Shown: piece after piece, positions 121 to 23,361 of the stretch | Layout of the letters: each line of letters starts with the position of its first letter | Numbering within the stretch: the first letter of the stretch is position 1 | From: Deltaproteobacteria bacterium GWF2_42_12 | GTDB lineage: Bacteria > Desulfobacterota > GWC2-55-46 > UBA9637 | Assembly (NCBI GenBank): GCA_001797665.1 | Contig: MGQA01000048.1 | Location: forward strand, 1-43,659 | DNA: 43,659 bases | Reading direction: 5' to 3' | Position numbers and translations under genes: made by a program | Notes under the pieces: generated by a model | Seen by the model: the letters and a program-made list of their open reading frames with translations, nothing else | What the model was told of the DNA's origin: nothing | The model's database searches: none

Positions 121-172
121 GGAGCAAGCCAACCGTGTTGGCGTAGAAACGGCGACACGGTCGCCTTGTTCC
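121..172 (+). repeat. Family A cloverleaf element, copy 1
   Basis: An outer stem GGAGCAA (121-127) pairs with TTGTTCC (166-172). Inside it are two hairpins: GCCAAC/GTTGGC with loop CGT (128-142) and GGCGAC/GTCGGC-type arms GGCGAC/GTCGCC with loop ACG (151-165). The element lies between tuf and rpmG and is followed at once by a TGGAG Shine-Dalgarno sequence. Related copies lie at 2615, 8336, 20130 and 23293, all in the same orientation. Confidence 0.8.
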
Positions 173-185
173 AAATGGAGAAAAG

Positions 186-335
186 ATGAGAGACATTATA
201 ACTTTAGCATGTAGTGATTGTAAGAACAGGAACTATACAACCACAAAAAATAAAAAGACAACGCCTGACAGGCTAGAGCTAAAAAAATATTGCAGACACT
301 GCAGAAAGCATACGGTCCATAAAGAGGCAAAGTAG
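186..335 (+). CDS. rpmG: 50S ribosomal protein L33, zinc type
   Basis: This 49-residue protein is a small subunit of the 50S ribosome, near the E site. Two CxxC pairs (C9/C12 and C36/C39) form the zinc ribbon of the C+ form of L33. The length and the start [13 protein letters not shown] match the family. ATG 186 has TGGAG six bases upstream, directly after the family A element. Its position between tuf and tRNA-Trp/secE is the usual one for rpmG. Confidence 0.95.
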
Positions 336-447
336 CAGCCTTACGGCAATTGTAAAATGAAAATTGCAAATTGCAAATTTTAAGAAAAGGTTTTCATTTT
401 GCAATTTAAAATTTTCACTTTGCATTTTTCAATGAGCGATAGCGTAT
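336..447 (+). repeat. Family B hairpin repeat, copy 1 (rpmG to tRNA-Trp spacer)
   Basis: The spacer begins with a degenerate GCC-TTACGGC hairpin. It then has words of the type AAATTGCAAATTGC on the left and their complements (TTTTGCAATTTAAAATTTTC) on the right, so the RNA can fold into a long imperfect hairpin. It ends in CAATGAGCGATAGCG, a variant of the GGAGCGAAGCGAC end seen in other B copies. No gene is visible here. Confidence 0.65.
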
Positions 448-524
448 AGGCCAGTAGCTCTAACGGCTAGAGCGTCGGTCTCCAAAACCGAGTGTTGGGG
501 GTTCGAATCCCTCCTGGCCTGCCA
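448..524 (+). tRNA. tRNA-Trp (anticodon CCA)
   Basis: A full cloverleaf can be drawn. The acceptor AGGCCAG (448-454) pairs with CTGGCCT (514-520), and the D arm is GCTC/GAGC. The anticodon stem TCGGT/ACCGA encloses CTCCAAA with anticodon CCA at 482-484. The T arm GGGGG/CCCTC encloses TTCGAAT. G is the discriminator base, and the CCA end is encoded at 522-524. tRNA-Trp next to secE-nusG is a frequent bacterial arrangement and suggests co-transcription. Confidence 0.97.
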
Positions 525-659
525 AGCTTAGCTTGGCATAGGCACCCTTAGTGTGCCAGCCAGTTAAAAAAGTATGGAGTAAGCAGTAGTCAGTAAGCAG
601 AAAAGAGGCAATTACTTTTTAACCGCCTACTCCTTACTGCATACTGCCTACTTTATTTA
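521..659 (+). repeat. Palindrome plus family C hairpin repeat, copy 1
   Basis: A palindrome GCCAAGCT-T-AGCTTGGC (521-537) overlaps the CCA end of the tRNA. From 571 to 653 come CAGTAAGCAG-type words followed by their complements (CCTACTCCTTACTGCATACTG). The two halves can form a long imperfect hairpin directly before the secE ribosome-binding site. Related spacers lie before rplD, rpsC and rpsH. Confidence 0.6.
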
Positions 660-676
660 AGAAAAGAGGAGTTAAG

Positions 677-868
677 ATGGAATTTATTGACAGATCAAGA
701 CAGTTCTTATCAGAGGCAAACCAGGAATTGCAGAGAGTAACCTGGCCTGTAAAAAAACATATTGTTGCCTCTACATGGGTAGTTATTGGGTTGGTTTTTG
801 TAATATCTATTTTCTTGGGATTTGTGGATTTTATATTTTCTAAATTGATAAGGTGGATACTCGGTTAA
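677..868 (+). CDS. secE: Preprotein translocase subunit SecE
   Basis: SecE clamps SecY in the SecYEG channel of the inner membrane. The 63-residue protein is the short single-span form. An amphipathic N-terminal part ending in [16 protein letters not shown] carries the conserved TWP segment, and one hydrophobic helix follows at about residues 31-58. GAGGAG lies just before ATG 677. It is followed after 32 bases by nusG, the standard pair. Confidence 0.95.
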
Positions 869-900
869 TCTATCCAAATACAGGGGTATTACTAACAGAT

Positions 901-1431
901 ATGGCAAAGAAATGGTATGTAGTTCACACATATTCAGGTTATGAAAATAAGGTAAAGGCTACTCTTCAGGAAAGAATAAAAAACGCTAAAATGGACGATT
1001 TTTTTTCAGAGGTATTAGTGCCTTCAGAAAAGGTTATAGGATTAGTTAAAGGCGAAAAGAAAACTACATCCAGAAAGTTTTTCCCAGGCTATATCCTGGT
1101 AAATATGGAATTGAATGAAGATTCATGGCATCTTGTAAAGGAGACACCTAAAGTCACTGGTTTTGTGGGCGGTGCAACAGCCCCTCAATCAATATCTGAA
1201 GAAGAGGTAAAGAAGATAACCCATCAAATGGAAGAAGGGGCAGTAAGGCCAAAGCCCAAGGTCCTTTTTGAAAGAGGAGAAAACGTGCGCGTTGTTGATG
1301 GACCGTTTACAAATTTTGCTGGTATTGTAGATGAAGTAAAGCCTGAGAAGGGTAAATTAAAGGTCTTGGTTAGCATATTTGGCAGGGCAACACCAGTAGA
1401 GCTCGATTTTGTGCAGGTAGAAAAGGCATAA
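901..1431 (+). CDS. nusG: Transcription termination/antitermination factor NusG
   Basis: NusG binds RNA polymerase, suppresses pausing and links it to Rho or the ribosome. I chose ATG 901, giving [15 protein letters not shown] and 176 residues, the normal family start. A frame-extending ATG at 853 overlaps secE and adds unrelated residues. The NGN domain covers about residues 1-110, with the YSGYE and FPGYILV motifs. The KOW domain is in the last 50 residues ([15 protein letters not shown]). The Shine-Dalgarno sequence is weak (AGGGG at 882). Confidence 0.96.
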
Positions 1432-1433
1432 GG

Positions 1434-1474
1434 ACAAAATTTCAAATTTCAAATTGCAAATTTCAAATTTAAGG
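1434..1474 (+). repeat. Short AAATTTC-word repeat (nusG to rplK spacer)
   Basis: The words AAATTTC/AAATTGC are repeated about five times between nusG and the rplK ribosome-binding site (AGGTAGGAG). AAATTT is itself palindromic, so the tract can fold weakly. A very similar tract precedes rpsD at 31116. Confidence 0.5.
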
Positions 1475-1486
1475 TAGGAGTTTAAA

Positions 1487-1912
1487 ATGGCAAAAAAGGT
1501 TGTTACACAGATTAAATTACAGGTTCCGGCTGGAAAGGCGAATCCATCGCCGCCAATTGGGCCGGCATTAGGTCAACATGGCGTAAATATAATGGAATTC
1601 TGCAAGCAGTTTAATGCCAAGACCCAGAAACAGGAAGGAATGATTATACCTGTTGTTATTACAGTCTATCAGGACAGGTCGTTTTCATTTATCACAAAGA
1701 CACCGCCCGCATCAATCCTTCTTATAAAGGCAGCGGGTGTGGAAAAGGGTTCTGGAAACCCGAATAAAGATAAGGTAGGAAAGGTTACAAAAAAACAGGT
1801 TATAGAGATAGCAAAATTAAAGATGCCTGACCTGACAGCCGCAAATCTTGATGCTGCTGTAAGGACTATTGAAGGTACAGCAAGAAGTATGGGAATAGTA
1901 GTGGAGGGTTAA
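1487..1912 (+). CDS. rplK: 50S ribosomal protein L11
   Basis: L11 (141 residues) binds the 23S rRNA GTPase-associated centre with L10 and L7/L12. The N-terminal domain holds the proline-rich [19 protein letters not shown] segment. The C-terminal RNA-binding domain follows with [17 protein letters not shown] 1487 has AGGTAGGAG upstream. rplA follows after one base, so the two are translationally linked, as in the standard L11 operon. Confidence 0.98.
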
Positions 1913-1913
1913 A

Positions 1914-2606
1914 ATGGGTAAAAACTATAACGCAGCTATTGCAAAAGTAGACACAAATAAATTTTACAATATTGACGATGCAGTGAAACTGCTTCCTGAA
2001 ACAGCTACGGCCAAATTTGATGAGACAGTGGATGTGGCTGTAAGATTAGGGATTGACCCAAAACAATCTGAGCAGATGGTTAGAGGGACTGTAGTACTAC
2101 CTAATGGGACTGGCAAGAAGGTCAGGGTTTTGGTTTTTGCAAAGGGGGAAAAGGAAAAAGAGGCAAAAGATGCAGGCGCAGATTTTGTAGGGGGAGAAGA
2201 TCTTGTTGAAAAGATAGCGAAGGGCTGGCTTGATTTTGACGCTATTGTTGCAACGCCAGACATGATGGGTTCTGTTGGTAAGCTGGGAAAAGTTTTGGGC
2301 CCCAGGGGGCTTATGCCAAATCCTAAACTTGGTACAGTAACATTCGATATTGCCAGGGCAGTAAAGGATATTAAGGCGGGTAAGGTAGAATTTAAGATTG
2401 ATAAGGCAGGCAATGTGCACGTTGCATTTGGCAAAATTTCCTTTGGTGTGAACAAGCTAAAAGAAAATTTTACTGTATTGTTAGAGAGTATTATAAAGGC
2501 AAAACCATCTACAAGCAAAGGGACATACTTAAGAAGTATTACAATATCAACAACAATGGGGCCCGGGATTAAGATAGATGCTGCCGGGGTAAGGGAGACT
2601 TTTTAA
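1914..2606 (+). CDS. rplA: 50S ribosomal protein L1
   Basis: L1 (230 residues) forms the mobile stalk that helps release E-site tRNA. In many bacteria it also represses its own L11-L1 mRNA. The family signature is visible in [21 protein letters not shown] around residues 121-141. The C-terminal [13 protein letters not shown] is also typical. The start lies one base after rplK. A family A element and the L10 leader follow. Confidence 0.98.
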
Positions 2607-2614
2607 ATAAATAT

Positions 2615-2668
2615 GGAGCAAGCCAACCGTGTTGGCGTAAGAATACGGCAACATGGGTGCTTTGATCC
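2615..2668 (+). repeat. Family A cloverleaf element, copy 2 (decayed)
   Basis: The outer arm GGAGCAA and the first hairpin GCCAAC/GTTGGC (2622-2636) are intact. The second hairpin is eroded (GGCAACATGGGTGC), and the closing arm reads TTTGATCC with one mismatch. Unlike the other copies it does not end at a ribosome-binding site. It abuts the 5' arm of the L10 leader at 2675. Confidence 0.65.
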
Positions 2669-2674
2669 AAATAT

Positions 2675-2897
2675 GGTCAAAGACAGTAGGGGCTGTTTGG
2701 CTTAATAATCCTACCGAGGCCAACGTCTTATGGCGATTGCAAAATGAAAATTGGCGCCAAAAGCGCCATTCTGAGTCCGCCTAAGGCGGATGAAGAATCC
2801 CTGAGACCCTTCGCTTCGCTCAGGGTGACATCTTCATGTCATTTTTCAATTTGCATTTTTCAATGAGCGGTAGCGATAGTCCTTTCTGTCTTTGTCC
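2675..2897 (+). promoter_or_regulatory. Ribosomal protein L10 leader (autoregulatory mRNA element), split by repeats
   Basis: The core 2680-2729 has the stem GTAGG/CCTAC (2686-2690 with 2710-2714). CTTAATAATCCTACCGAGG, the hallmark of bacterial L10 leaders, folds as a kink-turn in that family. AAGAC/GTCTT (2680-2684 with 2725-2729) can close it. A longer arm GGTCAAAGACAG (2675-2686) pairs 11 of 12 with CTGTCTTTGTCC (2886-2897), on the far side of a repeat tract at 2731-2880. In this family L10 or L10-L7/L12 binds the leader and represses rplJL. The identification rests on remembered family features, not on a search. Confidence 0.75.
2731..2880 (+). repeat. Composite B/J repeat inserted in the L10 leader
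   Basis: B-type ends (ATTGCAAAATGAAAATTG on the left, CAATTTGCATTTTTCAATGAGCG on the right) flank a J-type palindromic block at about 2762-2831. The block contains GGCGCC/GGCGCC-like arms, TCCGCCTAAGGCGGA and CCCTGAG/CTCAGGG. It looks like a dispersed repeat nested in a B element. It separates the L10-binding core from rplJ. Confidence 0.65.
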
Positions 2898-2945
2898 ATT
2901 ACGTTGAGTTTGATTAAAAAAATCCAAGAGACAGAAAGGGGGGAG
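2881..2945 (+). promoter_or_regulatory. Hairpin next to the rplJ ribosome-binding site
   Basis: CCTTTCTGTCT (2881-2891) is a perfect 11-base complement of AGACAGAAAGG (2929-2939). The 3' arm runs into the G-rich Shine-Dalgarno region of rplJ (GGAG at 2942-2945). The 5' arm overlaps the closing arm of the L10 leader (2886-2897), so the two pairings exclude each other. This suggests a translational switch, which is inference. Confidence 0.6.
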
Positions 2946-2952
2946 AAAAAAA

Positions 2953-3468
2953 TTGATTAAGGAAGAAAAGGTAAAGCTTGTAAACGAACTTCAGGACAAG
3001 TTTAAAAAGGCTAAGGCTGCATTTGTAACTGATTACAAGGGACTGAAGGTAGGGCAGGTGACTACCTTGAGAAAGTCTTTAAGGGATGCGTCTGTTGAGT
3101 TCAAGGTTGTCAAGAACACCCTTGCCAAGATAGCCATCAAGGAAGCTGGAGCAGAATCTTTGAAGGACTACTTCGATGGCACTACTGCTGTTGCCATGAG
3201 CTATGCTGACCCAGTCGCAGCAGCAAAGATTCTTACCCAGTTTGCGAAGGACGAACCTAACCTTAAAATCAGGGTTGGACTATTGGGGGGGAAACTCCTC
3301 AATCTTAACGAGATAAAGGCGCTTTCAGAGCTTCCATCCAGGGAAGTACTGTTGGGAAAACTTGTTGGCATGCTTAGGGCAGTTCCAACCAACCTGGTAG
3401 GAGTTTTGAGCGGCGTTCCAAGACAGTTGGTTTATACATTGGTTGCAATCCAGGCAAAAAAACAGTGA
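2953..3468 (+). CDS. rplJ: 50S ribosomal protein L10
   Basis: L10 (171 residues) anchors L7/L12 dimers to the ribosomal stalk. The N-terminal rRNA-binding domain contains VTDYKGLKVGQVTTLR and FKVVKNTLAKIA. The C-terminal helix, which binds L7/L12, is at about residues 135-171. The start is TTG 2953, eight bases after GGAG. No upstream ATG gives a family-like N terminus. It is followed by rplL after a family E repeat. Confidence 0.97.
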   Translation: MIKEEKVKLVNELQDKFKKAKAAFVTDYKGLKVGQVTTLRKSLRDASVEFKVVKNTLAKIAIKEAGAESLKDYFDGTTAVAMSYADPVAAAKILTQFAKDEPNLKIRVGLLGGKLLNLNEIKALSELPSREVLLGKLVGMLRAVPTNLVGVLSGVPRQLVYTLVAIQAKKQ

Positions 3469-3537
3469 ATTAGAGATTAGAGAATTAGAGATTAGTTTTT
3501 TCTAATTCACTAATCCACTAATTCGCTAATTAACTAA
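3469..3537 (+). repeat. Family E hairpin repeat (rplJ to rplL spacer)
   Basis: ATTAGAGATTAG words (3469-3496) are followed by complementary CTAATTCACTAATCC words (3502-3535). They form a long imperfect hairpin that ends just before the rplL ribosome-binding site. The word is unrelated in sequence to families B, C and D, but the layout is the same. Confidence 0.6.
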
Positions 3538-3559
3538 ATTAAAAATGGAGGTTTTAAAA

Positions 3560-3952
3560 ATGGCAAATATTTCAAAACAGGATGTAATAAAGTTTATTGA
3601 GAGTTCAACAGTTATGGAAATTGCAGAGCTTGTGAAAGAATTAGAGAATAAATTTGGCGTTACAGCAGCAGCCCCTGTGGCTGTAGCAGCCCATGTAGCA
3701 GGCGCTGCAGTGGCAGCAGGAGCTGCTCCGGCAGAAGAAAAAACAGAATTTACTATTATCCTCAAGAATACAGGCGCGGATAAGATTAAGGTAATCAAAG
3801 AAGTAAGGACAATTACAGGCCTTGGCTTAAAAGAGGCTAAGGATCTTGTAGAGGGTGCGCCAAAGACACTGAAAGAGGGTGTTTCTAAGGCAGATGTAGA
3901 TAATTTCAAAAAACTGCTTGAAGCTGCGGGCGCACAGGTAGAGATTAAGTAA
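3560..3952 (+). CDS. rplL: 50S ribosomal protein L7/L12
   Basis: L7/L12 (130 residues from ATG 3560) recruits translational GTPases. An N-terminal dimerisation domain ([29 protein letters not shown]) is followed by an Ala/Pro-rich hinge at about residues 35-62. The C-terminal domain carries the factor-binding helix [24 protein letters not shown] chose 3560 because TGGAGG lies eight bases upstream and the N terminus matches the family. An in-frame ATG at 3545 overlaps that ribosome-binding site. Confidence 0.97.
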
Positions 3953-3954
3953 TA

Positions 3955-4005
3955 AAGGACAATATTGTCAAGGCGGGGCAGATCGCCCCGCTGTCCTTGT
4001 TTTAG
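3955..4005 (+). terminator. Hairpin after rplL (attenuator-like)
   Basis: An inner stem GCGGGGC/GCCCCGC (3973-3979 with 3985-3991) is extended by AAGGACA (3955-3961) pairing with TGTCCTT (3992-3998). A weak T-tract (TTGTTTTA) follows. In well-studied bacteria a partial terminator or RNase III site lies between rplL and rpoB to lower polymerase expression. This hairpin may do the same. Confidence 0.6.
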
Positions 4006-4082
4006 GAAATAATTTTGGAATAAGAAACATATTTTTTCACATTGATGCACGAAGCTTCCATAGACGAGGTTAAGTGTTAAGG

Positions 4083-4138
4083 CCCAAAGTTCAAAGATAT
4101 ATACCAAAATATGGTTTTTATTTTGAGCTTTGGGTTTT
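4083..4138 (+). terminator. Second hairpin upstream of rpoB (attenuator-like)
   Basis: CCCAAAG (4083-4089) pairs with CTTTGGG (4128-4134). The stem continues inward with TCAAA/TTTGA, and TTTT follows. Together with the hairpin at 3955 this gives two terminator-like structures in the 239-base rplL-rpoB spacer. Confidence 0.55.
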
Positions 4139-4191
4139 AGCATTTATATTATAAAAGAAATCTGAACGATTATTTTAAATAGGAGAGAGAA

Positions 4192-7100
4192 ATGGGACAT
4201 GCATTATTAAGAGGAGCAATCCTTAGAAAGGATTATTCTCGCATTGGTAAGATAATAGATATTCCCAACCTAATAGACATTCAGAAAAAATCTTATCAGC
4301 AATTCTTGCAGGTAGGCGTAAAATCTGAAGGAAGGACTGATATAGGCCTTCAGGGCGTATTTAAGAGTATTTTTCCGATAAAGGATTATAGCGGCACAGC
4401 AACTTTGGATTTTGTAGGCTATGCTCTTGAAGAGCCAAAGTACACGGTTGAAGAATGTCAACAGAGAGGTATGACGTATGCCTCGCCTATGAAGATGACC
4501 GTTCGGCTTGTTGTGTGGGACAAGGATCGTGCAACCGGCGCCCAGACTATTAGGGACGTGAAGGAGCAAGAGATATATTTTGGCGAAGTGCCGCTCATGA
4601 CAGAGAATGGGACATTCATCATCAACGGAACTGAAAGGGTTATTGTAAGCCAGCTACATAGATCGCCTGGGGTGTTTTTTGAATATGAGAAGGGTAAAGG
4701 CTATACAGGCGGGAAGCTCCATTATACAGCAAGGATAATACCGTATCGTGGTTCATGGCTTGATTTTGAGTTTGACCAGAAAGATTGGATATATGTGCGT
4801 ATAGATAAACGCAGGAAGATGTTTGCTACTATTCTTCTCAAGGCATTGGGGTATTCTATAGAAGAACTGCTTAATTATTTCTATCCCGCAGAGGAGATTA
4901 CCCTGGAAGGCAAGAAGCTATTTAAAAAGGTAGAGCCAGACTATCTTGTGGGTCAGAAGGCCAGTAAGGAAATAAGGGACCCGAAGACCGATGAGGTAAT
5001 TATAAAAAAGGATAGGAAGTTTAACAGGGCGATTGTAAAGAGGCTTGTTGCTGCTGGGATTAAGCATATACCGATTGAATTAGAAGATATTTTAGGAAGG
5101 ATAGTAGCAAAGGATATAGTTGATAAAAAAACCGGAGAGGTTCTCTTAGAGTGCAACCAACTTGTTACAAAAGAAAAACTTGATGAGATAGAAAAAAGAG
5201 GAATAGATAAATTTCGGGTTTTATTTATAGATTCCTCAGGTCCTTTTTTCAGGGAAACACTTATTAATGATAGGATTACAAATGAGGAAACAAAGATTAT
5301 CCAAGCCTACCGCAAGGAAAACCCGGAGGACACTACCTCCAATATGACTATCAATGCTATGGTGGAGATATACAAAAGACTTAAACCTGGCGACCCTCCA
5401 ACCGTTGCTGCGGCTAAACAGAATTTCCAAAATCTGTTTTTTGCAGCAGACAGGTATGACCTGTCAAAGGTAGGCAGATTAAAACTTAACAGGAAACTTG
5501 GGTTCGATGTTGCTTTGGAGACAACGACACTGCGTAATGAGGATATCTACGGCGTTGTCCGTTATCTCGTAGGCCTAAAGAATGGACAGGGGATTGTTGA
5601 TGATATAGACCACTTAGGGAATAGAAGGGTCAGGTCAGTGGGCGAACTCCTGGAAAATCAGTACAGGATTGGTCTGTTGAGGATGGAGAGGGCAGTAAAG
5701 GAACGGATGAGCCTTGGTGAGTTGGAGACGCTTATGCCGCATGATTTTGTAAACCCCAAACCAGTTCAGGCTGTAATAAGGGAGTTTTTTGGTTCAAGCC
5801 AGCTTTCTCAGTTTATGGATCAGACTAATCCACTTTCTGAGATTACACATAAGAGAAGGCTTTCTGCCCTTGGCCCAGGAGGTTTGACAAGAGAGAGGGC
5901 AGGATTTGAAGTTAGAGACGTTCATGCAACTCACTATGGCAGGATATGTCCAATAGAAACCCCTGAAGGACCGAATATCGGACTGATAGTATCGCTCAGC
6001 ACCTATGCAAGGGTCAATGAATTTGGTTTTATTGAGACACCCTATAGAGAGGTTGTAAGCGGCAAGGTAACTAATCGGATAAAGTATCTGTCAGCACTGG
6101 ATGAGGAGGAGCATGTAATAGCTCAGGCAAACGCACCTATTGATAAGGATGGCAAATTTACTACGGAATTTGTTTCTGCGAGAAAGGGCGGCGAATTTGT
6201 CATGGCGCGGCCTGAGGAAATTACCCTTATGGACGTTTCTCCAAATCAGTTGGTCAGTATCGCGTCAGCGCTTGTCCCATTTCTTGAAAATGATGATGCC
6301 AACAGGGCGCTCATGGGTTCTAATATGCAGCGTCAGGCAGTTCCATTGATTCAGTCAGATGCCCCTCTTGTTGGAACAGGCATTGAAGAGGTTGTTGCAA
6401 AGGATTCAGGCGTCACAGTGGTTGCTAAAAGGGATGGCGCTGTGGAGAGCGTCGATGCCTCAAGAATAGTGATAAAATCACATGACGGCGTTGATATCTA
6501 CAATCTTACCAAATTTAAAAGGTCTAATCAGAATACCTGTATGAATCAGAAACCTATAGTAAAGATTGGTGAGCGGGTAAGCAAGGGAGATATTATAGCA
6601 GATGGGCCTTCAACAGATTGTGGCGAGCTTGCACTCGGCAGGAATGTAATTGTAGCCTTCATGCCATGGGGTGGGTATAATTTTGAAGACTCTATTCTGC
6701 TCAGTGAGCGGCTTATGAAGGATGATGTATTCACCTCTGTGCATATAGAAGAGTTCGAGACAATGGCCAGGGATATGAAGCTTGGTAAAGAGGATATCAC
6801 CAGGGATATTCCAAATGTGGGTGAGGAGGCGCTGAAGGATTTAGATGAGGGCGGTATTGTGCGGATTGGCGCAGAAGTAGGGCCTGGAGACATACTGGTT
6901 GGTAAGGTGACGCCAAAAGGCGAGACCCAGCTTTCACCAGAAGAGAAACTGCTCCGCGCTATCTTCGGGGAAAAGGCAGAGGATGTAAAGGATACATCTT
7001 TGAAGGTTCCGCCAGGCATCGAAGGGGTTGTTATTGATGTAAATGTCTTTGCAAGGAAAGGCGCTGATAGGGATGAAAGGAGCAAATCTATTGAAGATAA

Positions 7101-8331: not shown

Positions 8332-8335
8332 GTAT

Positions 8336-8386
8336 GGAGCGAGCCGACCGTGTCGGCGTAGAACGGCAACATGGTTGCCTTGCTCC
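8336..8386 (+). repeat. Family A cloverleaf element, copy 3 (rpoB to rpoC spacer)
   Basis: The outer stem GGAGCGA (8336-8342) pairs with TTGCTCC (8380-8386). Hairpin 1 is GCCGAC/GTCGGC (8343-8357), where copy 1 has GCCAAC/GTTGGC. Hairpin 2 is GGCAAC/GTTGCC (8365-8379), where copy 1 has GGCGAC/GTCGCC. Both changes preserve pairing. The rpoC ribosome-binding site AGGAGG begins five bases after the element. Confidence 0.85.
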
Positions 8387-8404
8387 AAAGAGGAGGAAAC
8401 AACT

Positions 8405-12966: not shown

Positions 12967-12972
12967 TAAATA

Positions 12973-13508: not shown

Positions 13509-13627
13509 TAGCCCTACGGGCAATTGCAAAATGAAAAATGCAAATTGCAAAATACAAAATTAAGGATGTTTTAAGTTTACAATTTAAAATTTACAATCTT
13601 CAATTTGCAATGGAGCGAAGCGACAAT
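13509..13627 (+). repeat. Family B repeat, copy 4, carrying the fusA ribosome-binding site
   Basis: The element starts with the hairpin GCCCTACGGGC and runs through ATTGCAAAATG-type words and a central ATGTTTTAAGTTTA. It returns through CAATTTAAAATTTACAA and ends CAATGGAGCGAAGCGAC, directly before fusA ATG 13628. It is nearly identical over about 95 bases to the element before rplB (19150). GGAG at 13612 is the only visible Shine-Dalgarno sequence for fusA. Confidence 0.75.
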
Positions 13628-15709: not shown

Positions 15710-15717
15710 ATATAAGA

Positions 15718-15781
15718 AACCGTTCAAGCAGTTCAAACCGTTGAAACCGTTTAATCGGCTTGAACGGTTTGAACAATCTTT
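15718..15781 (+). repeat. Family D hairpin repeat, copy 1 (fusA to tuf spacer)
   Basis: CCGTTCAAGC (15720-15729) is the exact complement of GCTTGAACGG (15758-15767). GTTCAAACCG-type words flank both arms. The spacer ends just before the tuf ribosome-binding site. Related spacers precede rpsJ and rplF. Confidence 0.65.
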
Positions 15782-15796
15782 AATAGGGGAGGTTTT

Positions 15797-16996
15797 ATGA
15801 GCAAGGCCAAATTTGACAGGACAAAGCCGCACATCAACATAGGAACGATAGGGCATGTAGACCACGGGAAGACAAGCCTGACAGCGGCAATAACAAAGGT
15901 ATTAAGCACCAGAGGATTGGCAGAATTTCTGGCATACGAAAACATAGACAAGGCCCCTGAAGAAAGAGAAAGGGGATTAACCATATCCATCTCCCATGTA
16001 GAATACCAGACAGACAAAAGGCACTATGCCCATGTGGATTGCCCTGGCCATGCAGACTATGTAAAGAACATGATAACCGGAGCAGCCCAGATGGACGGCG
16101 CAATCCTTGTCGTAAGCGCAGCAGACGGCCCAATGCCCCAGACAAGAGAGCACATACTATTGGCAAGACAAGTAGGAGTTCCAGCCATAGTAGTATTCTT
16201 AAACAAAGTAGATATGGTAGACGACAAAGAACTCATGGATTTAGTAGAACTTGAAGTCCGAGAACTATTAAACAAATACAAATTTCCTGGAGATGAAATA
16301 CCAGTAGTAAAAGGAAGCGCAATAAAGGCATTAGAATGCGGATGCGGCAAAAAAGAATGCAAAAGCTGCGGCCCAATCTTACAACTACTTGACACAGTAG
16401 ACAGCTACATAAAAGAGCCCAAAAGAGACATAGACAAGCCATTCATCATGCCGATAGAAGACGTCTTCTCCATATCTGGAAGAGGGACAGTAGTAACCGG
16501 CAGAGTAGAGAGAGGCGTCGTAAAAGTAGGAGAAGAAATAGAGATAGTAGGAATAAAACCGACCCAGAAGACCGTAGCAACAGGAATAGAGATGTTCAGA
16601 AAACTCCTTGACGAAGGAAGGGCAGGAGACAACATTGGAGTGCTATTAAGGGGCACAAAGAAAGAAGAAGTAGAAAGAGGACAAGTGCTTGCAAAACCTG
16701 GCAGCATAACCCCGCATACCAAATTCAAGGCAGAGATATACGTTTTGACAAAAGAAGAAGGCGGAAGACACACGCCGTTCTTTAATGGATACCGACCGCA
16801 GTTCTACTTTAGGACAACAGATGTAACCGGAGTAGCCACATTACCGCAGGGGGTGGAGATGGTAATGCCAGGAGACAACACCAATCTGGAAGTAGAGCTC
16901 ATCATGCCGATAGCAATGGACGAGGGGTTAAGATTTGCGATAAGAGAAGGCGGCAGGACAGTTGGAGCAGGTGTGGTAACGAAGATACTGGCATAA
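15797..16996 (+). CDS. tuf: Elongation factor Tu (complete copy)
   Basis: EF-Tu (399 residues) delivers aminoacyl-tRNA to the ribosome. GTPase motifs are GHVDHGKT (19-26), the RGLT switch, DCPGH and NKVD. Beta-barrel domains 2 and 3 are complete. The end of the G domain has an unusual cysteine cluster, C181, C183, C188 and C191 ([13 protein letters not shown]), where E. coli has no cysteines. Codon choice differs from all neighbours: Val is mostly GTA, Ile mostly ATA with a single ATT, and Asp mostly GAC. GGGGAGG precedes ATG 15797. Confidence 0.98.
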
Positions 16997-17007
16997 GGGG
17001 AAAATAT

Positions 17008-17053
17008 GATTTAAGCGGTTTAAACTGTTTAAACGGTTTGAACTGTTTTTAAT
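17008..17053 (+). repeat. Family D repeat, copy 2 (tuf to rpsJ spacer)
   Basis: GCGGTTTAAACTG, TTTAAACGG and TTTGAACTG words repeat with a period of about 10. GTTTAAAC is self-complementary, so the tract can fold back. It ends at the rpsJ ribosome-binding site (TGGAG). Confidence 0.55.
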
Positions 17054-17062
17054 GGAGAAAAG

Positions 17063-17380
17063 ATGAAGGACCAGAAGATAAGGATTAGATTAAAGGCATA
17101 CGACCATAGGCTCTTAGATAGGTCAGTCAAAGAGATTGTAGATACTGCTAAGAGAACTGGTGCGAATATCAAGGGACCTATTCCTCTGCCTACAGAGATA
17201 AATAAATATTGTGTGCTACGCTCTCCGCATGTTGATAAAAAATCAAGGGAGCAATTTGAGATAAGGACTCACAATAGGTTGATGGATATTGTTGAACCTA
17301 ATCAGCAGACAGTGGATGCCTTGATGAAACTGAACTTACCTGCTGGCGTGGATGTTGAGATAAAACAGCTTAATGCATAA
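17063..17380 (+). CDS. rpsJ: 30S ribosomal protein S10
   Basis: S10 (105 residues) is a 30S head protein and also NusE in antitermination complexes. The sequence is family-typical throughout: [15 protein letters not shown] at the start, GPIPLPTEI in the loop, and [15 protein letters not shown] lies before ATG 17063. It opens the S10 operon nine bases before rplC. Confidence 0.98.
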
Positions 17381-17389
17381 GAGGTTTAA

Positions 17390-18040
17390 ATGTCGATGGT
17401 GAATGGAATCTTAGGTAAAAAGATTGGAATGACCCAGATTTTTAATAAAGATGGCGAGGTAGTTCCTGTTACTGTGATAAAGGCCGGGCCTTGTTTTGTA
17501 GTTCAGAAAAAAAACAAGACTAATGACGGCTATGATGCAGTACAACTTGGATTCATTGAAAAAAAGAAAGAAAGGGTAAATAAGCCACTTAGCGGGCACT
17601 TTGCGAAGGCCAAAACCCCTACATGTTACCATCTTAAAGAGTTTAAAGGAGACTCCTTAGATCAGTATCAGCTCGGCCAGAAAATAACTTGCGATATATT
17701 TAAGGTTGGTGAATTTGTTGACGTCTCAGGAAAAACCAAAGGACGAGGCTTTACAGGCGTTATGAAAAGATGGGATTTTGCTGGAGGCCCAGGGAGCCAC
17801 GGTTCTATGTTTAATAGGGCGCCTGGCTCAATTGGTTCAAGCTCTGACCCATCAAGGGTTTACAAAGGTATGAGGATGGGCGGTCATTATGGGAATGAAA
17901 CTGCGACTGTACAGAATCTTCAGATTGTCGCAGTCAAACCAGAAGAGGGCATTTTACTTATTAAAGGCGGCATACCAGGGGCTGTTAACAGTATTTTAGA
18001 GATAAAAAAGGCGAGGAAGAAAGTAGTCAGTAAGCAGTAA
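17390..18040 (+). CDS. rplC: 50S ribosomal protein L3
   Basis: L3 (216 residues) has its loop near the peptidyl-transferase centre. [13 protein letters not shown] opens the protein. The signature [20 protein letters not shown] and the following [15 protein letters not shown] are intact. The last five codons (VVSKQ) are written by a C-type repeat word (GTAGTCAGTAAGCAG), so the C terminus and the stop come from the repeat. An ATG two codons in (17396) is a possible alternative start. Confidence 0.97.
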
Positions 18041-18050
18041 GCAGAAAGGA
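18021..18050 (+). repeat. Family C repeat, short copy overlapping the end of rplC
   Basis: AAGTAGTCAGTAAGCAGTAAGCAGAAAGG carries the same CAGTAAGCAG words as the spacers at 571, 20941 and 24446, but lacks the complementary right half. It supplies the last codons and stop of rplC and the AAAGGA ribosome-binding site of rplD. Confidence 0.55.
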
Positions 18051-18055
18051 TTGCT

Positions 18056-18676
18056 ATGCCAACAGTAGATATATTAAATATAGAGAACAAGAAAGTTGGA
18101 ACCGCCAATTTGAATGACAACGTCTTTGCCAGTCCTGTGAAGGAAAGCCTGTTCTATGAGACGGTGAAGATGCAGCTGGCCAACAGGAGGGCTGGTACTG
18201 CATCAACAAAAACGAGGGCTAATGTCTCTGGCGGTGGTGTAAAACCTTGGAAGCAGAAAGGCACAGGCAGGGCAAGGGCTGGCTCTATTCGTTCTCCTTT
18301 GTGGAGACATGGTGGAACTGTTTTTGGTCCTCATCCCAGAGATTACTCGTATAAATTGCCTAAGAAGGTTAGGGAGGGGGCAATCAGGTCTGTTTTAGCC
18401 CTCAAGCTAAAGGAAGGAAGATTAAGGGTTTTAGATGAGATAAAGCTTAATGAGCCAAAGACTAAGGGTCTTGCAGTGATTTTAAAAAAGATTAACTCAA
18501 ACAAGGGGCTCATAGTTATAGATGGTTCTAATCCAAATCTGGAATTGGCTGTAAGAAATCTTAAGGATTTCAAATTATTAAAGATTAATGGAATTAATAC
18601 ATTTGACCTTCTGTTATATGATGATTTGATAATAACTAAGGCGGCAGTAGAACAGCTTGAGAAAAAATTGCTGTAA
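18056..18676 (+). CDS. rplD: 50S ribosomal protein L4
   Basis: L4 (206 residues) lines the exit tunnel and can regulate the S10 operon in enterobacteria. The tunnel loop KQKGTGRARAGSIRSPLWRHGGTVFGP is complete (about residues 62-90). The C-terminal lobe is less conserved but has the usual length. ATG 18056 follows a ribosome-binding site within a C-type repeat. Confidence 0.97.
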   Translation: MPTVDILNIENKKVGTANLNDNVFASPVKESLFYETVKMQLANRRAGTASTKTRANVSGGGVKPWKQKGTGRARAGSIRSPLWRHGGTVFGPHPRDYSYKLPKKVREGAIRSVLALKLKEGRLRVLDEIKLNEPKTKGLAVILKKINSNKGLIVIDGSNPNLELAVRNLKDFKLLKINGINTFDLLLYDDLIITKAAVEQLEKKLL

Positions 18677-18858
18677 GGAGCTCTGTTAGGTATATGCCAT
18701 ACGAAGCCTGACAGAATAAATTGTAAACCCCTGCACCTTGACCCACACACCAAAATCTTTGGTGTGTGGGCAAGGAAAAAATGAGCGACCCTGCGTCAAG
18801 AGCGCAGGGTATTCCCAGCAAGGTGTGGGGGTAAAGAATATAAAGGGAGAGCCGACAG
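18677..18858 (+). repeat. Nested family G palindromes (rplD to rplW spacer)
   Basis: The 182-base spacer holds an outer pair CCCCTGCACCTT (18728-18739) and AAGGTGTGGGG. Inside are a near-perfect hairpin CCCACACACCAAA/TTTGGTGTGTGGG (about 18742-18769) and a second hairpin ACCCTGCG/CGCAGGGT. Related hairpins lie at 20518 and 38551. The layout looks like one palindrome inserted into another. No gene is visible. Confidence 0.7.
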
Positions 18859-19149
18859 GTGAAAGACATATATCAAATATTAAAAGAACCTGTAATTACT
18901 GAGAAGAGCACAACACAAAGGACTGAGTCAAACAAGGTAGTCTTCTGGGTAGATTTGAAGGCTAATAAGAATGACATAAAAGAGAGTGTTGAAAAGGTAT
19001 TTAATGTGAAGGTTGTTAATGTAAATATATTGCGGATTCCTGGGAAGACAAAAAAGGTAGGTATTAATATCAGCAAAGGTTCGACGAGGAAAAAGGCTTA
19101 CATCACATTAAGAGAGGGAGATAGCATACCCTTATTTGAAGGAGCATGA
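18859..19149 (+). CDS. rplW: 50S ribosomal protein L23
   Basis: L23 (96 residues) lies at the tunnel exit and docks trigger factor and SRP. The start is GTG 18859 (MKDIYQILKEPVITEKST). EPVITEKST, VEKVFNVKVVNVNILR and the end of the protein match the family. GGGAGAG lies upstream. The stop TGA abuts the B element before rplB. Confidence 0.97.
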   Translation: MKDIYQILKEPVITEKSTTQRTESNKVVFWVDLKANKNDIKESVEKVFNVKVVNVNILRIPGKTKKVGINISKGSTRKKAYITLREGDSIPLFEGA

Positions 19150-19303
19150 GCCCTACGGGCAATTGCAAAATGAAAAATGCAAATTGCAAAATGCAAATTA
19201 ATGATGTTTTAAGTTTATAATTTAAAATTTAGAATTTGCAATTTTCAATCACGCTAAGCGTGATTATGCCACGCTGAGCGTGGCAATGGAGCGGAGCGAC
19301 AAG
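19150..19303 (+). repeat. Family B repeat, copy 5, with two extra hairpins, carrying the rplB ribosome-binding site
   Basis: Its first about 95 bases closely match the element before fusA (13509). It then carries TCACGCTAAGCGTGA (19249-19263) and TGCCACGCTGAGCGTGGCA (19267-19285), which the fusA copy lacks. It ends AATGGAGCGGAGCGAC before rplB ATG 19304. GGAG at 19293 lies seven bases before the start. Confidence 0.75.
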
Positions 19304-20125
19304 ATGCCATTAAAGACATATAAACCTACATCACCAGGCATAAGACAATTAACGAGATTATCCTTTGACGAAATCACAAAGGTAGAGCCGGAGAAGTCCT
19401 TGATTTTGCCCTTAAAAAGGACAGGCGGCAGGAATTCATACGGCAGAGTTACCTCAAGATGGATGGGCGGTGGACATAAAAGGGCATACAGAATCATAGA
19501 TTTTAGGAGGGATAAAAGGGGCGTACCTGGCAAGGTAACTGCTATAGAATATGATCCGAACCGTTCTTGCAGAATTGCGCTTTTAACGTATGTTGATGGT
19601 GAAAAGAGGTATATCCTTGCGCCTGTTGACCTGAAGGTTGGCGATACAGTGGTTGCTGGCGAGGGCGTGGACATAAAGATAGGCAATGCAATGCCAATTA
19701 AGTCCATACCTCTTGGAACTTTCATTCATAATATAGAGCTTAAGATAGGCGCTGGTGGACAGATGGTTAGAAGTGCGGGTGGCTATGCGCAGCTTATGGC
19801 TAAGGAAGGCAGTTTGGCGCAGGTAAAACTTCCTTCTGGCGAGGTTAGATATGTTTTGCAGGATTGTTATGCAACGATAGGCCAGCTTGGTAACATAGAC
19901 CATGAAAATGTGACTATAGGAAAGGCAGGCAGGTCAAGATGGCTTGGAAGACTTCCGCGAGTTAGGGGAGTAGCCATGAATCCAGTAGATCATCCTCATG
20001 GTGGCGGCGAAGGCAAGAGTAAGGGAGGAAATCACCCTCAGAGTCCGTGGGGCACTCCTGCCAAAGGGTTTAAGACAAGAAGGCGTAAACAGACAGACAA
20101 GTATATAGTGTCAAGAAGGAAGTAG
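19304..20125 (+). CDS. rplB: 50S ribosomal protein L2
   Basis: L2 (273 residues) is needed for peptidyl-transferase assembly. [15 protein letters not shown] opens the protein. The OB-fold and SH3-like domains follow. [19 protein letters not shown] carries the conserved histidine region. I chose ATG 19304; a GTG at 19280 in the same frame lies inside the B repeat and adds MAMERSDK, which is repeat-coded. Confidence 0.97.
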
Positions 20126-20129
20126 ATTT

Positions 20130-20201
20130 GAAGCGAGCCAACCACCGCACACTTAGCGTGACATGGTTGGCGTAACAACGGCAACACGGTTGCCTTGCTC
20201 C
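20130..20201 (+). repeat. Family A cloverleaf element, copy 4 (rplB to rpsS spacer)
   Basis: The outer arms GAAGCGA (20130-20136) and TTGCTCC (20195-20201) pair with one mismatch. Hairpin 1 is extended to GCCAACCA/TGGTTGGC and its loop carries an inserted small palindrome (GCACACTTAGCGTG). Hairpin 2 is GGCAAC/GTTGCC with loop ACG. GGGAGG for rpsS follows directly. Confidence 0.8.
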
Positions 20202-20217
20202 AAAAAGGGAGGAAGTA

Positions 20218-20517
20218 GTGGCTCGTTCCATAAAAAAAGGCCCATTTGTAGATGAACATTTGCTAAAGAAGATAGAGCAGGCAAATGAGGCAAAGGCAAA
20301 AAAGGTTATCAAGACATGGTCAAGACGGTCTACCATTACCCCGGATATGATCGGCCATACGATAGCAGTTCATAATGGGAAGAAATTTATTCCTGTTTTT
20401 GTTACTGAAAATATGGTCGGGCATAAATTAGGAGAATTTTCACCAACCAGGACATTTAAGACTCATTCTGGTGATAGAAAGACAAAGGTTGCTGGCGCAG
20501 AGGGTAAGGCAGCGTAA
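20218..20517 (+). CDS. rpsS: 30S ribosomal protein S19
   Basis: S19 (99 residues) is a 30S head protein contacting tRNA and S13. The family core is visible in [37 protein letters not shown] and [14 protein letters not shown]. The start is GTG 20218 with GGGAGG upstream, immediately after the family A element. Confidence 0.97.
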
Positions 20518-20549
20518 ACCCCCACACGAAAAATTTTGGTGAGGGGGTA
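20518..20549 (+). repeat. Family G hairpin, copy 2
   Basis: ACCCCCACACGAAAAATT is followed by TTTGGTGAGGGGGTAAA. The arms CCCCCACAC and GGTGAGGGGG pair imperfectly. It resembles the inner part of the rplD-rplW spacer and the copy at 38551. It starts at the rpsS stop codon. Confidence 0.55.
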
Positions 20550-20604
20550 AATACAGTGAACAGTGGCGAGTTAACAGTCCATATTTATTTATAGGAGTAG
20601 AGAA

Positions 20605-20937
20605 ATGGAAGCCAAGGCAAGTGCACGATATGTCAGGGTCAGTCCGCAGAAGGCAAGACTCGTAATAGACCTCATAAGAGGCAAAAAGATAAATGATGCG
20701 ATAGCCAGATTAGCATTTACCAAGAAGGCTGTAGCAAAAGAAATAGATAAGATTTTAAAGAGCGCTATAGCAAATGCTGAGAATACAAAGAAGATGGATG
20801 TTGATAATCTTTATGTTAAAAAGGCATATGTTGACCAGGGCCCTACCATGAAGCGGATACATGCAAAGGCAATGGGTAGGGCAAATGTAATAAGACGGCG
20901 GAATAGCCATATTACGATAGTATTGGACGAAAAGTAA
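20605..20937 (+). CDS. rplV: 50S ribosomal protein L22
   Basis: L22 (110 residues) reaches into the exit tunnel with its beta hairpin. ASARYVRVSPQKARLVIDLIRGK and the C-terminal GPTMKRIHAKAMGRANVIRRRNSHITI are family-typical. AGGAGTAG precedes ATG 20605. Confidence 0.98.
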   Translation: MEAKASARYVRVSPQKARLVIDLIRGKKINDAIARLAFTKKAVAKEIDKILKSAIANAENTKKMDVDNLYVKKAYVDQGPTMKRIHAKAMGRANVIRRRNSHITIVLDEK

Positions 20938-21020
20938 AAAGACAGTAGGCAGTAAGCAGTAGGCAGTAAGCAGGAAGATTTTTTCTGCTTACTCCATACT
21001 GCCTACTCCTTACTGCAGTA
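20938..21020 (+). repeat. Family C hairpin repeat, copy 3 (rplV to rpsC spacer)
   Basis: CAGTAGGCAGTAAGCAG words (20942-20970) are followed by complementary CTGCTTACTCCATACTGCC words (20986-21017), giving a long imperfect hairpin. It ends at AAAAAGGAGG, the rpsC ribosome-binding site. Confidence 0.65.
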
Positions 21021-21037
21021 AAAAAGGAGGTGTATTT

Positions 21038-21703
21038 TTGGGCCAGAAGGTTAATCCAATAGGTTTCAGAGTAGGCATATATAGGGACTGGACTTCGAGA
21101 TGGTATGGTGAGAAGGACTATGCCAAGTTCCTGCATTCGGATATACAAGTGAGAAAATTTATAAAAGAAAAACTCAAACATGCAGGGGTTTCGAAGATAG
21201 ACATAGAAAGAACAGCCGGTAACGTGAAGGTCATTATTCATACAGCTAAACCCGGTATGGTGATAGGCAAGAAGGGTTCTGAAATTGATGTTCTAAAAAA
21301 GGGCGTAGTAAAGTTCGCTGGCAAAGATGTTGATATTGACATCCAGGAGGTCAGAAGGCCTGATACCGATGCGCAACTTGTTGCAGAGAACGTAGCCACC
21401 CAGTTAGAAAGAAGGGTTGCATTCAGAAGGGCAATGAAAAAGGCTGTGACAACCGCCTTAAAGCTGGGAGCTGGTGGAATAAAGATTATGTGTGCAGGCA
21501 GACTTGGTGGAGCAGAGATTGCAAGGACTGAATGGTATAGACAGGGAAGGGTGCCTCTTCATACCCTTAGAGCAAACATTGACTATGGTTTTGCGGAGGC
21601 CAAGACAACATATGGAATTATCGGGATTAAGGTATGGATATTTAAGGGCGAGATAATGCCTGAGAGCGCTGTAGTCAGCGCCCAAGTTCCGGTGGGTAGT
21701 TAG
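21038..21703 (+). CDS. rpsC: 30S ribosomal protein S3
   Basis: S3 (221 residues) forms part of the mRNA entry tunnel. The start is TTG 21038 ([18 protein letters not shown]) with AAGGAGG upstream. The KH domain has [20 protein letters not shown], and the C-terminal domain has [26 protein letters not shown]. Length is usual for the family. The 106-base spacer to rplP has no clear repeat family member. Confidence 0.97.
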
Positions 21704-21809
21704 TGGATTCAAATAAAAAGTGGTTGAGGTTTCGGCTAAGGCTTAAGAATTACTTAACCTGAATCTTAATATTAGTTGTATATTATTTAACAGTGGAGTG
21801 AAATGACGC

Positions 21810-22226
21810 ATGTTAATGCCTAAAAGGACAAAATTCAGAAAGCAGCAACGTGGAAAAAGAAGAGGCATGGCAACAAGAGGCGCTGAGCTTACTTTTGGAG
21901 ATTATGGTCTTCAGGCAACTGCGTGTGGTTGGCTTACAACAAGGGAAATAGAGGCTGCGCGTATTGCAATGACCCGTTTTATAAAGAGAGGCGGAAAGAT
22001 ATGGATAAGGATATTTCCTGATAAGCCTGTTTCCAAAAAACCCGCTGAAACAAGGATGGGGAGCGGAAAGGGTGCGCCTGAGGACTGGGTTGTTGTTATA
22101 AAGCCAGGACGGATTTTATATGAAATGGAAGGCATTACAGAGGATGTGGCTAAAGAGGCATTTAGGTTAGCAAGTCATAAGATCTCTATTCCGACAAAAA
22201 TGATTTGCAGGGAGGAAAATATATGA
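21810..22226 (+). CDS. rplP: 50S ribosomal protein L16
   Basis: L16 (138 residues) contacts the A-site tRNA elbow. [24 protein letters not shown] is the classic start. [27 protein letters not shown] and the [19 protein letters not shown] segment are intact. ATG 21816 is a possible alternative start, but the TGGAG site fits 21810 better. A TIR element begins right after the stop. Confidence 0.97.
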
Positions 22227-22328
22227 ATCCCGTTAGACCTGTATGCAAGTATAGCTTATTAAGTGGTAATAAAAGGCGTGGTAACGGAAAATATTTGGTT
22301 AATTTTCTAAAGGGAGGTCTAACGGGAT
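22227..22328 (+). repeat. Family H TIR element, copy 1 (rplP to rpmC spacer)
   Basis: ATCCCGTTAGACCT (22227-22240) and AGGTCTAACGGGAT (22315-22328) are a perfect 14-base inverted repeat around a 74-base interior. The element fills the whole spacer. Its right arm runs into the rpmC start codon (GGGATG). The rpmC ribosome-binding site GGGAGG (22312-22317) is partly in the arm. Similar termini flank spacers at 28924 and 33637. Confidence 0.7.
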
Positions 22329-22527
22329 GAAGCCTGCTGAAATAAGGGATATGACACTGGATGACCTTAAGTTAAAGATTGGAGAACTATCTAAAGAGTT
22401 CTTTAATATAAAATTACAACATGCTATGGGACGGCTTGATAATCCCATGAGAATTCCTCAGATAAAAAAGGATATAGCTCGCATCAATACAATTATGAGG
22501 GAGAAAGAATTGGAAAAGAGGGCGTAA
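22327..22527 (+). CDS. rpmC: 50S ribosomal protein L29
   Basis: L29 (66 residues) sits near the tunnel exit beside L23. [43 protein letters not shown] is a clear family match of two antiparallel helices. The ATG overlaps the end of the H element. rpsQ follows after four bases. Confidence 0.96.
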
Positions 22528-22531
22528 ACAC

Positions 22532-22792
22532 ATGGAAGTTAAGAAGAGAGGGTTAAAAAAGGCCAGAATCGGCACTGTAATAAGCGATAAGATGGATAAA
22601 ACAGTTGTAGTTTCTGTTGAGAGGATAGTAAAACATCCAATTTATGGAAAGTATGTAAAGAAGCAGGCAAAATATATGGCACATGATGAAAAGGATGAAT
22701 GCAAAGCTGGAGATAGAGTTAAGATAATAGAGATTCGTCCATTGAGCAAATTAAAAAGGTGGCGGATAAGTCAAGTGTTGGAGAAGGCATAA
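22532..22792 (+). CDS. rpsQ: 30S ribosomal protein S17
   Basis: S17 (86 residues) is a 16S rRNA-binding OB-fold protein. [30 protein letters not shown] and [23 protein letters not shown] are family signatures. It follows rpmC by four bases and so is probably coupled to it. A B-type repeat lies downstream. Confidence 0.97.
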
Positions 22793-22915
22793 CTGCAAAT
22801 TGAAAATTGAAGATTGAAAATTGCAAATTTTAAAGCCTAAAATTTACAATTTTATTTTACAATCACGCTAAGCGTGATTATGCCACGCTGAGCGTGGCAA
22901 TGGAGCGAAGCGACA
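22793..22915 (+). repeat. Family B repeat, copy 6, carrying the rplN ribosome-binding site
   Basis: CAAATTGAAAATTGAAG words are followed by AATTTACAATTTTATTTTACAA. Then come the hairpins TCACGCTAAGCGTGA (22863-22877) and TGCCACGCTGAGCGTGGCA (22881-22899), and the end ATGGAGCGAAGCGAC. GGAG at 22902 lies ten bases before rplN ATG 22916. The two hairpins are identical to those before rplB. Confidence 0.75.
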
Positions 22916-23284
22916 ATGATTCAGATGAGAAGCATACTTAATGTGGCTGATAATTCCGGTGCAAAGAAGATAGCATGTATAGGCGTAATTGGCGCTTCTA
23001 ATAAACGGTATGCCACAGTAGGAGATATCATAACAGCGTCAGTTAAGGTTGCGACTCCAAACGCTAAGGTAAAAAAGGGCGAAAAGGTACGGGCAGTTGT
23101 CGTTCGCACTGTTAAAGAGCTAAGACGCATTGATGGTTCTTATATAAAATTTGATGAGAATTCAGCTGTTATTATCAATAAGGATAATGAACCAGTTGGG
23201 ACACGTATCTTTGGTCCTGTGGCAAGAGAGCTCAGGGCAAAAAGGTTTATGAAGATAATATCCCTCGCGCCAGAGGTGCTGTAA
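22916..23284 (+). CDS. rplN: 50S ribosomal protein L14
   Basis: L14 (122 residues) forms an intersubunit bridge and binds silencing factor RsfS in other bacteria. [26 protein letters not shown] and the C-terminal [24 protein letters not shown] are family-typical. The start codon is directly after the B element. Confidence 0.98.
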
Positions 23285-23292
23285 AAGTTTAT

Positions 23293-23361
23293 GGAGCGAG
23301 CCGACCATGTCACGCTAAGCGTGACTATGTCGGCGTAACGGCAACACGGTTGCCTTGCTCC
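23293..23361 (+). repeat. Family A cloverleaf element, copy 5 (rplN to rplX spacer)
   Basis: The outer stem GGAGCGA (23293-23299) pairs with TTGCTCC (23355-23361). Hairpin 1 is GCCGAC/GTCGGC (23300-23305 with 23329-23334), its loop enlarged by TCACGCTAAGCGTGA (23310-23324), the same hairpin found in B elements. Hairpin 2 is GGCAAC/GTTGCC. GAGGGAG for rplX follows directly. Confidence 0.85.

Follow-up and report, generated by a model that had tools for sequence, protein, structure and literature searches.

Five palindromic repeats between ribosomal and rpo genes

The stretch of DNA analysed here, referred to as the window, is contig MGQA01000048.1 (43,659 nt) of Deltaproteobacteria bacterium GWF2_42_12, whose genome comprises 2.44 Mb in 126 contigs. 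The window carries tuf, rpoB, rpoC and ribosomal protein genes, and five short repeats, built as inverted doublets of repetitive extragenic palindrome (REP) units, lie at their borders. The initial annotation had described five such repeats with two inner hairpins each, and all five were recovered with these hairpins at the positions below. A unit of type Y (hairpin GCC..GGC) is followed in each case by an inverted unit of type Z (hairpin GGC..GCC).

118-175, + strand: element 1, between tuf and rpmG; Y unit 121-142, inverted Z unit 151-172, TAT and AAA edges
2612-2671, + strand: element 2, 8 nt past the rplA stop codon and 5′ of the rplJ leader region; Y unit 2615-2636, degenerate inverted Z unit 2647-2668
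8333-8389, + strand: element 3, 4 nt past the rpoB stop codon and 5′ of the rpoC Shine-Dalgarno (SD) sequence; Y unit 8336-8357, inverted Z unit 8365-8386
20127-20204, + strand: element 4, between rplB and rpsS; Y unit with enlarged hairpin 1, inverted Z unit 20180-20201
20137-20142/20166-20171, + strand: stem of hairpin 1 of element 4; extra sequence 20143-20165
20117-20125, + strand: AGGAAGTAG left of element 4 (rplB end and stop codon), read directly
20210-20218, + strand: second copy of AGGAAGTAG, right of element 4 (rpsS SD)
23290-23364, + strand: element 5, between rplN and rplX; Y unit, hairpin 1 (23300-23334) with nested palindrome, inverted Z unit 23340-23361
23309-23325, + strand: nested 17-nt palindrome GTCACGCTAAGCGTGAC in hairpin 1 of element 5, read directly; also in other copies

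Alignment of the five copies gave the consensus, with flanks, TAT-GGAGCRA-GCCRAC-CRT-GTYGGC-GTA..AC-GGCRAC-AYG-GTYGCC-TTGCTCC-AAA. Departures in the outer stem are found in copy 4, which begins GAAGCGA, and in copy 2, which carries TTGATCC; copies 4 and 5 contain an additional hairpin nested in hairpin 1. Four of the five elements end 3-6 nt 5′ of an SD sequence (rpmG, rpoC, rpsS and rplX; one to six bases in the initial annotation), and the fifth precedes the rplJ leader-like region.

A 17-nt palindrome, GTCACGCTMAGCGTGAC, lies in the loop of hairpin 1 in the window (23309-23325) and at C36:4306, C54:16969, C71:29605 and C87:6698. It seems to be acquired or lost independently, since the copies at C87:6698 and C90:4675 have near-identical flanks and differ in its presence. 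The window also holds two tuf copies with 3′ ends that are 99% identical and share the last 116 nt (1-116 and 16881-16996). An element follows the first tuf only, and no unit was found behind the second.

The repeats belong to a dispersed family of REP doublets

A covariance-model search of the whole genome, as proposed in the initial annotation, returned about 65 places, most of them matched on both strands since the element is near-palindromic. With a strict whole-element pattern 30 copies were found, and an exact single-unit pattern matched 112 units (57 forward, 55 reverse). The reversed unit pattern, used as a control on the same genome, gave 0 matches, which excludes chance. The units cluster into 69 loci, of which 51 are inverted doublets (25 Y+Z-, 16 Z+Y- and 10 Z+Z-); the remainder are triplets, tandems and apparent singlets, several of the latter with a diverged or interrupted partner.

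The REP unit has 27 nt and consists of the head TWTGGASCRA, the hairpin GSCRAC-CRT-GTYGSC (6 bp, 3-nt loop) and GT. Its boundaries were set by a head-to-tail array of three copies on contig C13, which repeats every 27 nt and whose last copy is TATGGAGCAAGGCAACCGTGTTGCCGT. In the doublets the spacer is short, mostly 5-12 nt, and conservation beyond the ends reaches no further than a left-hand TAT and a right-hand AAA. The family thus shows the features of REPs and REPINs (REP doublets forming hairpins): a dispersed short palindrome, inverted doublets and a unit-flanked gene for a REP-associated tyrosine transposase (RAYT). It falls outside the GTAG superfamily of REPs, as its hairpin foot is GGASCRA, and outside the CGTC superfamily, as the conserved unit has no CGTC tag and a RAYT is linked. 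The five window elements are members of this one dispersed REPIN family.

In 49 of 51 doublets the variable A/G stem position is not the same in both hairpins, where about half would be expected; the nominal p-value of 6e-13 overstates the case because copies share ancestry. Y-Y doublets are absent (about 8 expected), and identical hairpin types are paired in a single doublet (about 16 expected), leaving 50 of 51 non-identical. The rule is obeyed by at least three different hairpin combinations, and in the listed doublets of relatives the two units differ there too. Several REP families are known to prefer heterodimers, for which protection from SbcCD cleavage was proposed (PMC3733652).

Two hairpins rather than a cloverleaf

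The paired changes reported in the initial annotation (GCCAAC/GTTGGC versus GCCGAC/GTCGGC and GGCGAC/GTCGCC versus GGCAAC/GTTGCC) are seen in the window and extend to a larger set. In a set of 20 genomic copies, pairing is kept in 100% of cells for helix 2 and in 99.2% for helix 3, each with true two-sided change, and cells with two-sided change number 14 compared to 6.2 in shuffles. The proposed outer stem GGAGCRA/TTGCTCC stood only in part: the head sequences are conserved, whereas a paired, covarying stem is weakly indicated, with pair 10-59 open in 11 of the 20 copies and two-sided change at one pair only. A more fitting description than "cloverleaf" is therefore a pair of small hairpins whose conserved 5′ heads face each other. 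We also tried a single long hairpin and rejected it, as it pairs 81.6% of cells with zero covariation. RNA energies slightly favour the long hairpin (-22.7 versus -20.4 kcal/mol); DNA folding parameters favour the cloverleaf or two-hairpin form in 27 of 34 cases. At the gathering score of Rfam the element has no match, and two ordinary tRNAs are the sole matches in the window.

RAYT genes adjoin the units

Ten Y1_Tnp genes were found in the genome by family search, and one more, partial, on contig C13 by protein search. The gene at C22:2766-3308 encodes a protein of 181 aa that scores 91.7 bits with the NCBIfam REP-associated tyrosine transposase model NF047646 (cut-off 80) and keeps the HYH motif and the NYIYYNPVKHG stretch, as expected of a RAYT. 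Its sole PDB match is chain 4er8, labelled TnpArep (E 1.4e-10), and it reaches 29 bits against the NCBIfam IS200 cut-off of 55, which places it outside IS200/IS605. On its 5′ side a Z and a Y unit stand in tandem 11 nt before the ATG, and on its 3′ side a Y/Z doublet begins 27 nt past the stop codon. A paralog on C13, truncated where the contig ends, is 77% identical over the 66 aa present and has three head-to-tail 27-nt units directly upstream. Units precede the starts of both RAYT genes by 8-11 nt. The RAYT with its flanking units qualifies as a REPtron as the literature uses the term (PMC3733652, PMC6006769). That two RAYT copies stand against about 65 element loci counts against the gene moving itself as a multicopy IS200/IS605 element.

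For each of the nine other Y1 genes, the genome-wide unit list has the nearest unit at a distance of at least 3.7 kb or has none on that contig. Other Y1 genes, at C19:7631-7951, C67:5979-6296 and C44:4387-4743, are flanked by different palindromes of their own (GTAGCGCGGGGG.., GTAGGGGAGGGG.. and GTAGGTTGGGTT..), which suggests that several REP systems exist in the genome. In G001, a genome of the same family and another genus, the identical unit pair is kept and the contig ends at ATGATA right behind it.

Insertion sites

The initial annotation had offered a mobile palindrome as one explanation, and the genomic data strongly support it: the family is dispersed, orthologous sites in relatives lack the element, some copies lie in frame within genes, and a cognate RAYT is flanked by units. 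At the tuf-rpmG, rplA-rplJ, rpoB-rpoC, rplN-rplX and rplB-rpsS junctions of six relatives (G001-G006) the element is absent. In five of the six, the rplB stop codon overlaps the rpsS start (AGGAGGAARTAGTGG) with no insert, and in the window the element is bracketed there by the SD/stop string AGGAAGTAG, one copy on each side, so that the upstream stop codon and the downstream SD are both preserved. The suggestion that the palindrome carries its own translation signal is not supported, as the SD sequences fall outside the conserved element, which ends in TCCAAA, and at rpsS AGGAAGTAG stands on both sides of the insert. Insertion between a stop codon and the ribosome-binding site that follows it accounts for the proximity to SD sequences. 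Over 58 loci, flank similarity was 4.92, compared to 4.83±0.13 for mismatched flanks, indicating no general target duplication.

At 25 loci the element lies 3-8 nt past a stop codon. In-frame copies were found inside long genes, namely those for DNA polymerase III alpha (dnaE), peptidyl-tRNA hydrolase (pth) and a CusA-type transporter (cusA), and further in nicotinate phosphoribosyltransferase, an IleS-like synthetase, an LptD-like protein, a P-type ATPase, a DNA glycosylase and a sensor kinase. Compared with solved homologs, the element-coded peptide adds residues in Pth, and in DnaE and CusA a variable stretch shows a net gain.

Orientation is non-random genome-wide, as the window copies had suggested: among loci inside genes or between co-directional genes with assignable orientation, 41 lie along transcription and 4 against it, a count that rests on simple open reading frame calls, a few of which may be wrong, and on copies that are not independent. 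Replication direction estimated from GC skew agrees with transcription direction in nearly all copies, so the orientation fits either. Since IS200/IS605-family HUH elements favour the lagging-strand template (PMC6006769), replication is a plausible but unproven cause.

As a separate observation, imperfect palindromes of other sequence often occupy the rpoB-rpoC, tuf-rpmG and rplN-rplX slots of G001-G006, relatives in the same family (L175-L180, L227-L232), and many of them consist of degenerate repeats of about 7 nt. For rpoB-rpoC, the slot palindromes of all seven genomes have RNAfold z-scores from -1.6 to -6.6.

Distribution in relatives and phages

Across 59 related genomes (own included), the covariance model matched only the family of the window, in 7 of its 8 members. 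In a phylum sample of 395 genomes the strict unit pattern was found in 3, of which one lies outside the family and has a single unit. Among public genomes, the named carriers are groundwater "Deltaproteobacteria" and one "Nitrospiria" metagenome-assembled genome.

Units also occur on three viral contigs. One, IMGVR_UViG_3300044848_000015, a 43-kb tailed phage (61-65% GC in the pieces examined), holds at least seven loci of the REP family:

L233:2697-2773
L240:4884-4937
L243:4891-4912
L244:1159-1180
L245:111-163, 3526-3547 and 11429-11450

Genes around these loci encode the major head protein, a head-tail adaptor, tail fibre J and an endolysin, and several loci sit between a stop codon and the next SD. 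We found no relative of the RAYT in the examined pieces of this contig. A literature search for REP elements in phage genomes came back empty, which is weak evidence as it covered open-licence papers only. The 50 non-identical doublets and the phage contig allow a bolder reading, in which a REPIN lineage with a new head and a functional heterodimer rule spreads from lineage to lineage on tailed phages and settles in the stop-to-SD slots of phage and host; we put it forward tentatively and consider it rather doubtful.

Origin of the elements and alternative explanations

Taken together, the elements are very probably a REPIN family mobilised by a RAYT and surviving in stop-to-SD slots or in-frame protein loops. 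This reading draws on the dispersed family, the doublet anatomy, the RAYT association, the absence from orthologous sites, the in-frame copies and the lack of a general target duplication. In the most likely mechanism, a small HUH single-tyrosine transposase (the RAYT on C22, with its paralog on C13) would recognise the unit in single-stranded DNA as head plus hairpin, cleave it, and move the doublet as a non-autonomous single-stranded DNA element. The doublet would insert without regular target duplication, and copies would survive where they fall into the stop-to-SD gap of an operon or, in frame, into protein loops that tolerate them. Survivorship may thus account for position: copies look as if they precede ribosomal genes because those in stop-to-SD slots survive.

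Several observations speak against this picture. Most RAYT-linked REPs described so far carry the tag GTAG; the head here does not, and its assignment to this particular RAYT is based on adjacency. No close RAYT ortholog was seen in the element-bearing relatives, among them G004 (99% complete, 27 model hits), and the C22 RAYT matched relatives' proteins only at 26-32% identity; the gene may have been lost or missed there, or another enzyme may act. In addition, one site, rpsS, has a 9-nt flanking duplication.

The initial annotation had also proposed a structured RNA acting on co-transcribed ribosomal genes. A conserved cis-regulator or autogenous leader controlling ribosomal and rpo genes would agree with the covarying inner hairpins and with the window copies, all co-oriented with and just upstream of ribosomal protein genes or rpoC, a bias that persists genome-wide. 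However, most copies adjoin unrelated genes, about ten lie in frame within coding sequence, the same genes in relatives hold unrelated palindromes or nothing, and the RAYT linkage and the lack of an Rfam match also speak against it, so that we consider this very improbable. A dedicated riboregulator of ribosomal genes is not supported, since most copies are elsewhere, some within coding sequences, and the element is missing from these genes in relatives. Given the genuine orientation bias, copies may still affect transcripts and operon expression in a secondary way. One form of such an effect is that an element of REPIN origin is now kept as a post-stop stem-loop tuning termination, mRNA decay or coupling. 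This is compatible with mobilisation by a RAYT and fits the 25 post-stop loci, the co-orientation and the stop-to-SD slots of relatives, where imperfect palindromes of unrelated sequence are frequent (7 of 7 genomes for rpoB-rpoC). Yet the stem is not essential, as five of the six relatives have nothing in the rplB-rpsS slot and G004 has no stem at tuf-rpmG, and survivorship can account for position; we regard it as unlikely.

A miniature inverted-repeat transposable element, that is, a deletion derivative of a DDE-transposase insertion sequence with terminal inverted repeats, might be suggested by the short length, the imperfect inverted ends (TWTGGASCRA), the high copy number and the duplication at rpsS. 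This is hard to reconcile with the lack of a mean or fixed-length target-site duplication over the 58 loci, with single units occurring head to tail (C13) and as singlets, and with hairpin complementarity kept within, not across, the two halves. Moreover, the genes bracketed (C22) or preceded (C13) by units are RAYTs, although other transposase families were not searched for, and we judge such an origin highly unlikely. Integron attC-like recombination sites or a tRNA-like cloverleaf share the paired hairpins in single-stranded DNA and a similar size, but the copies are dispersed singly without cassette arrays, the only tRNAs that Rfam reports in the window are the two ordinary ones, and the linked gene is a RAYT (no integrase search was made); this explanation is almost certainly wrong.

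Other features of the window

Further short repeats are dispersed in intergenic gaps, comprising AAATTGCAAATTGC-type arrays and CACGCTAAGCGTG and GGAGCGAAGCGACAAT palindromes. They lie in the window at:

338-439
13519-13617
19158-19302
22788-22916
25907-25999
30226-30332
40173-40333

At about 2672-2735, 5′ of rplJ, the sequence GGTCAAAGACAGTAGGGGC..GGCTTAATAATCCTACCGAGGCC is kept with small changes in six of six relatives. The region looks like an L10 leader, and it has no Rfam match at the gathering threshold.

Comparison with known systems

With this family, REPIN/RAYT systems now include an uncultured groundwater lineage and a head that carries neither the GTAG nor the CGTC tag. With a 27-nt unit, a 6-bp hairpin and two RAYT paralogs, it is a compact case for how RAYT specificity evolves, and the scarcity of identical-hairpin doublets is a sharp, testable constraint on doublet copying or survival. 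The copies in DnaE, Pth and CusA mean that mobile DNA has repeatedly remodelled conserved proteins. Copies in a phage would open a path for horizontal spread to a class of repeats that is mostly treated as a long-persisting population within one genome.

REPINs and bacterial interspersed mosaic elements with RAYTs (Bertels & Rainey 2011, PMC3116915), including the Y and Z REPs and TnpAREP of E. coli (PMC8266576), share the inverted head-plus-hairpin doublets, the high copy number, the two Y/Z-like types, the unit-bracketed RAYT and the compensatory stem changes. In contrast to these, the head here is TWTGGASCRA and not GTAG, the spacer is short, two 6-bp hairpins replace one long one, and heterodimers are near-absolute. 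The non-GTAG head, the near-obligate heterodimers, the 41:4 co-orientation, the insertion 3-8 nt past stop codons and the phage-contig copies are unusual for REPIN/RAYT systems. The GTAG and CGTC REP superfamilies (Di Nocera 2013, PMC3733652) are likewise small palindromes just past stop codons, between co-directional genes and sometimes within genes, including DnaE-type genes, and heterodimers are common among them; neither tag occurs here, and unlike for CGTC repeats a transposase gene is linked. Rickettsia palindromic elements (RPE), of which RPE-4 and RPE-6 are CGTC repeats (PMC3733652), are also short palindromes inserted in frame in conserved protein genes, but they are unrelated in sequence and lineage, and the copies described here are mostly intergenic and have a linked RAYT. 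The atypical REP-like structures of Y1 transposase subclass 2.6 and class 3 (Quentin 2018, PMC6006769) resemble our family in having non-GTAG feet beside Y1 genes and many dispersed copies; the foot reported for class 3 TnpA-Y1 is CnGA, whereas it is SCRA here, with CCGA in part of the Z units only.

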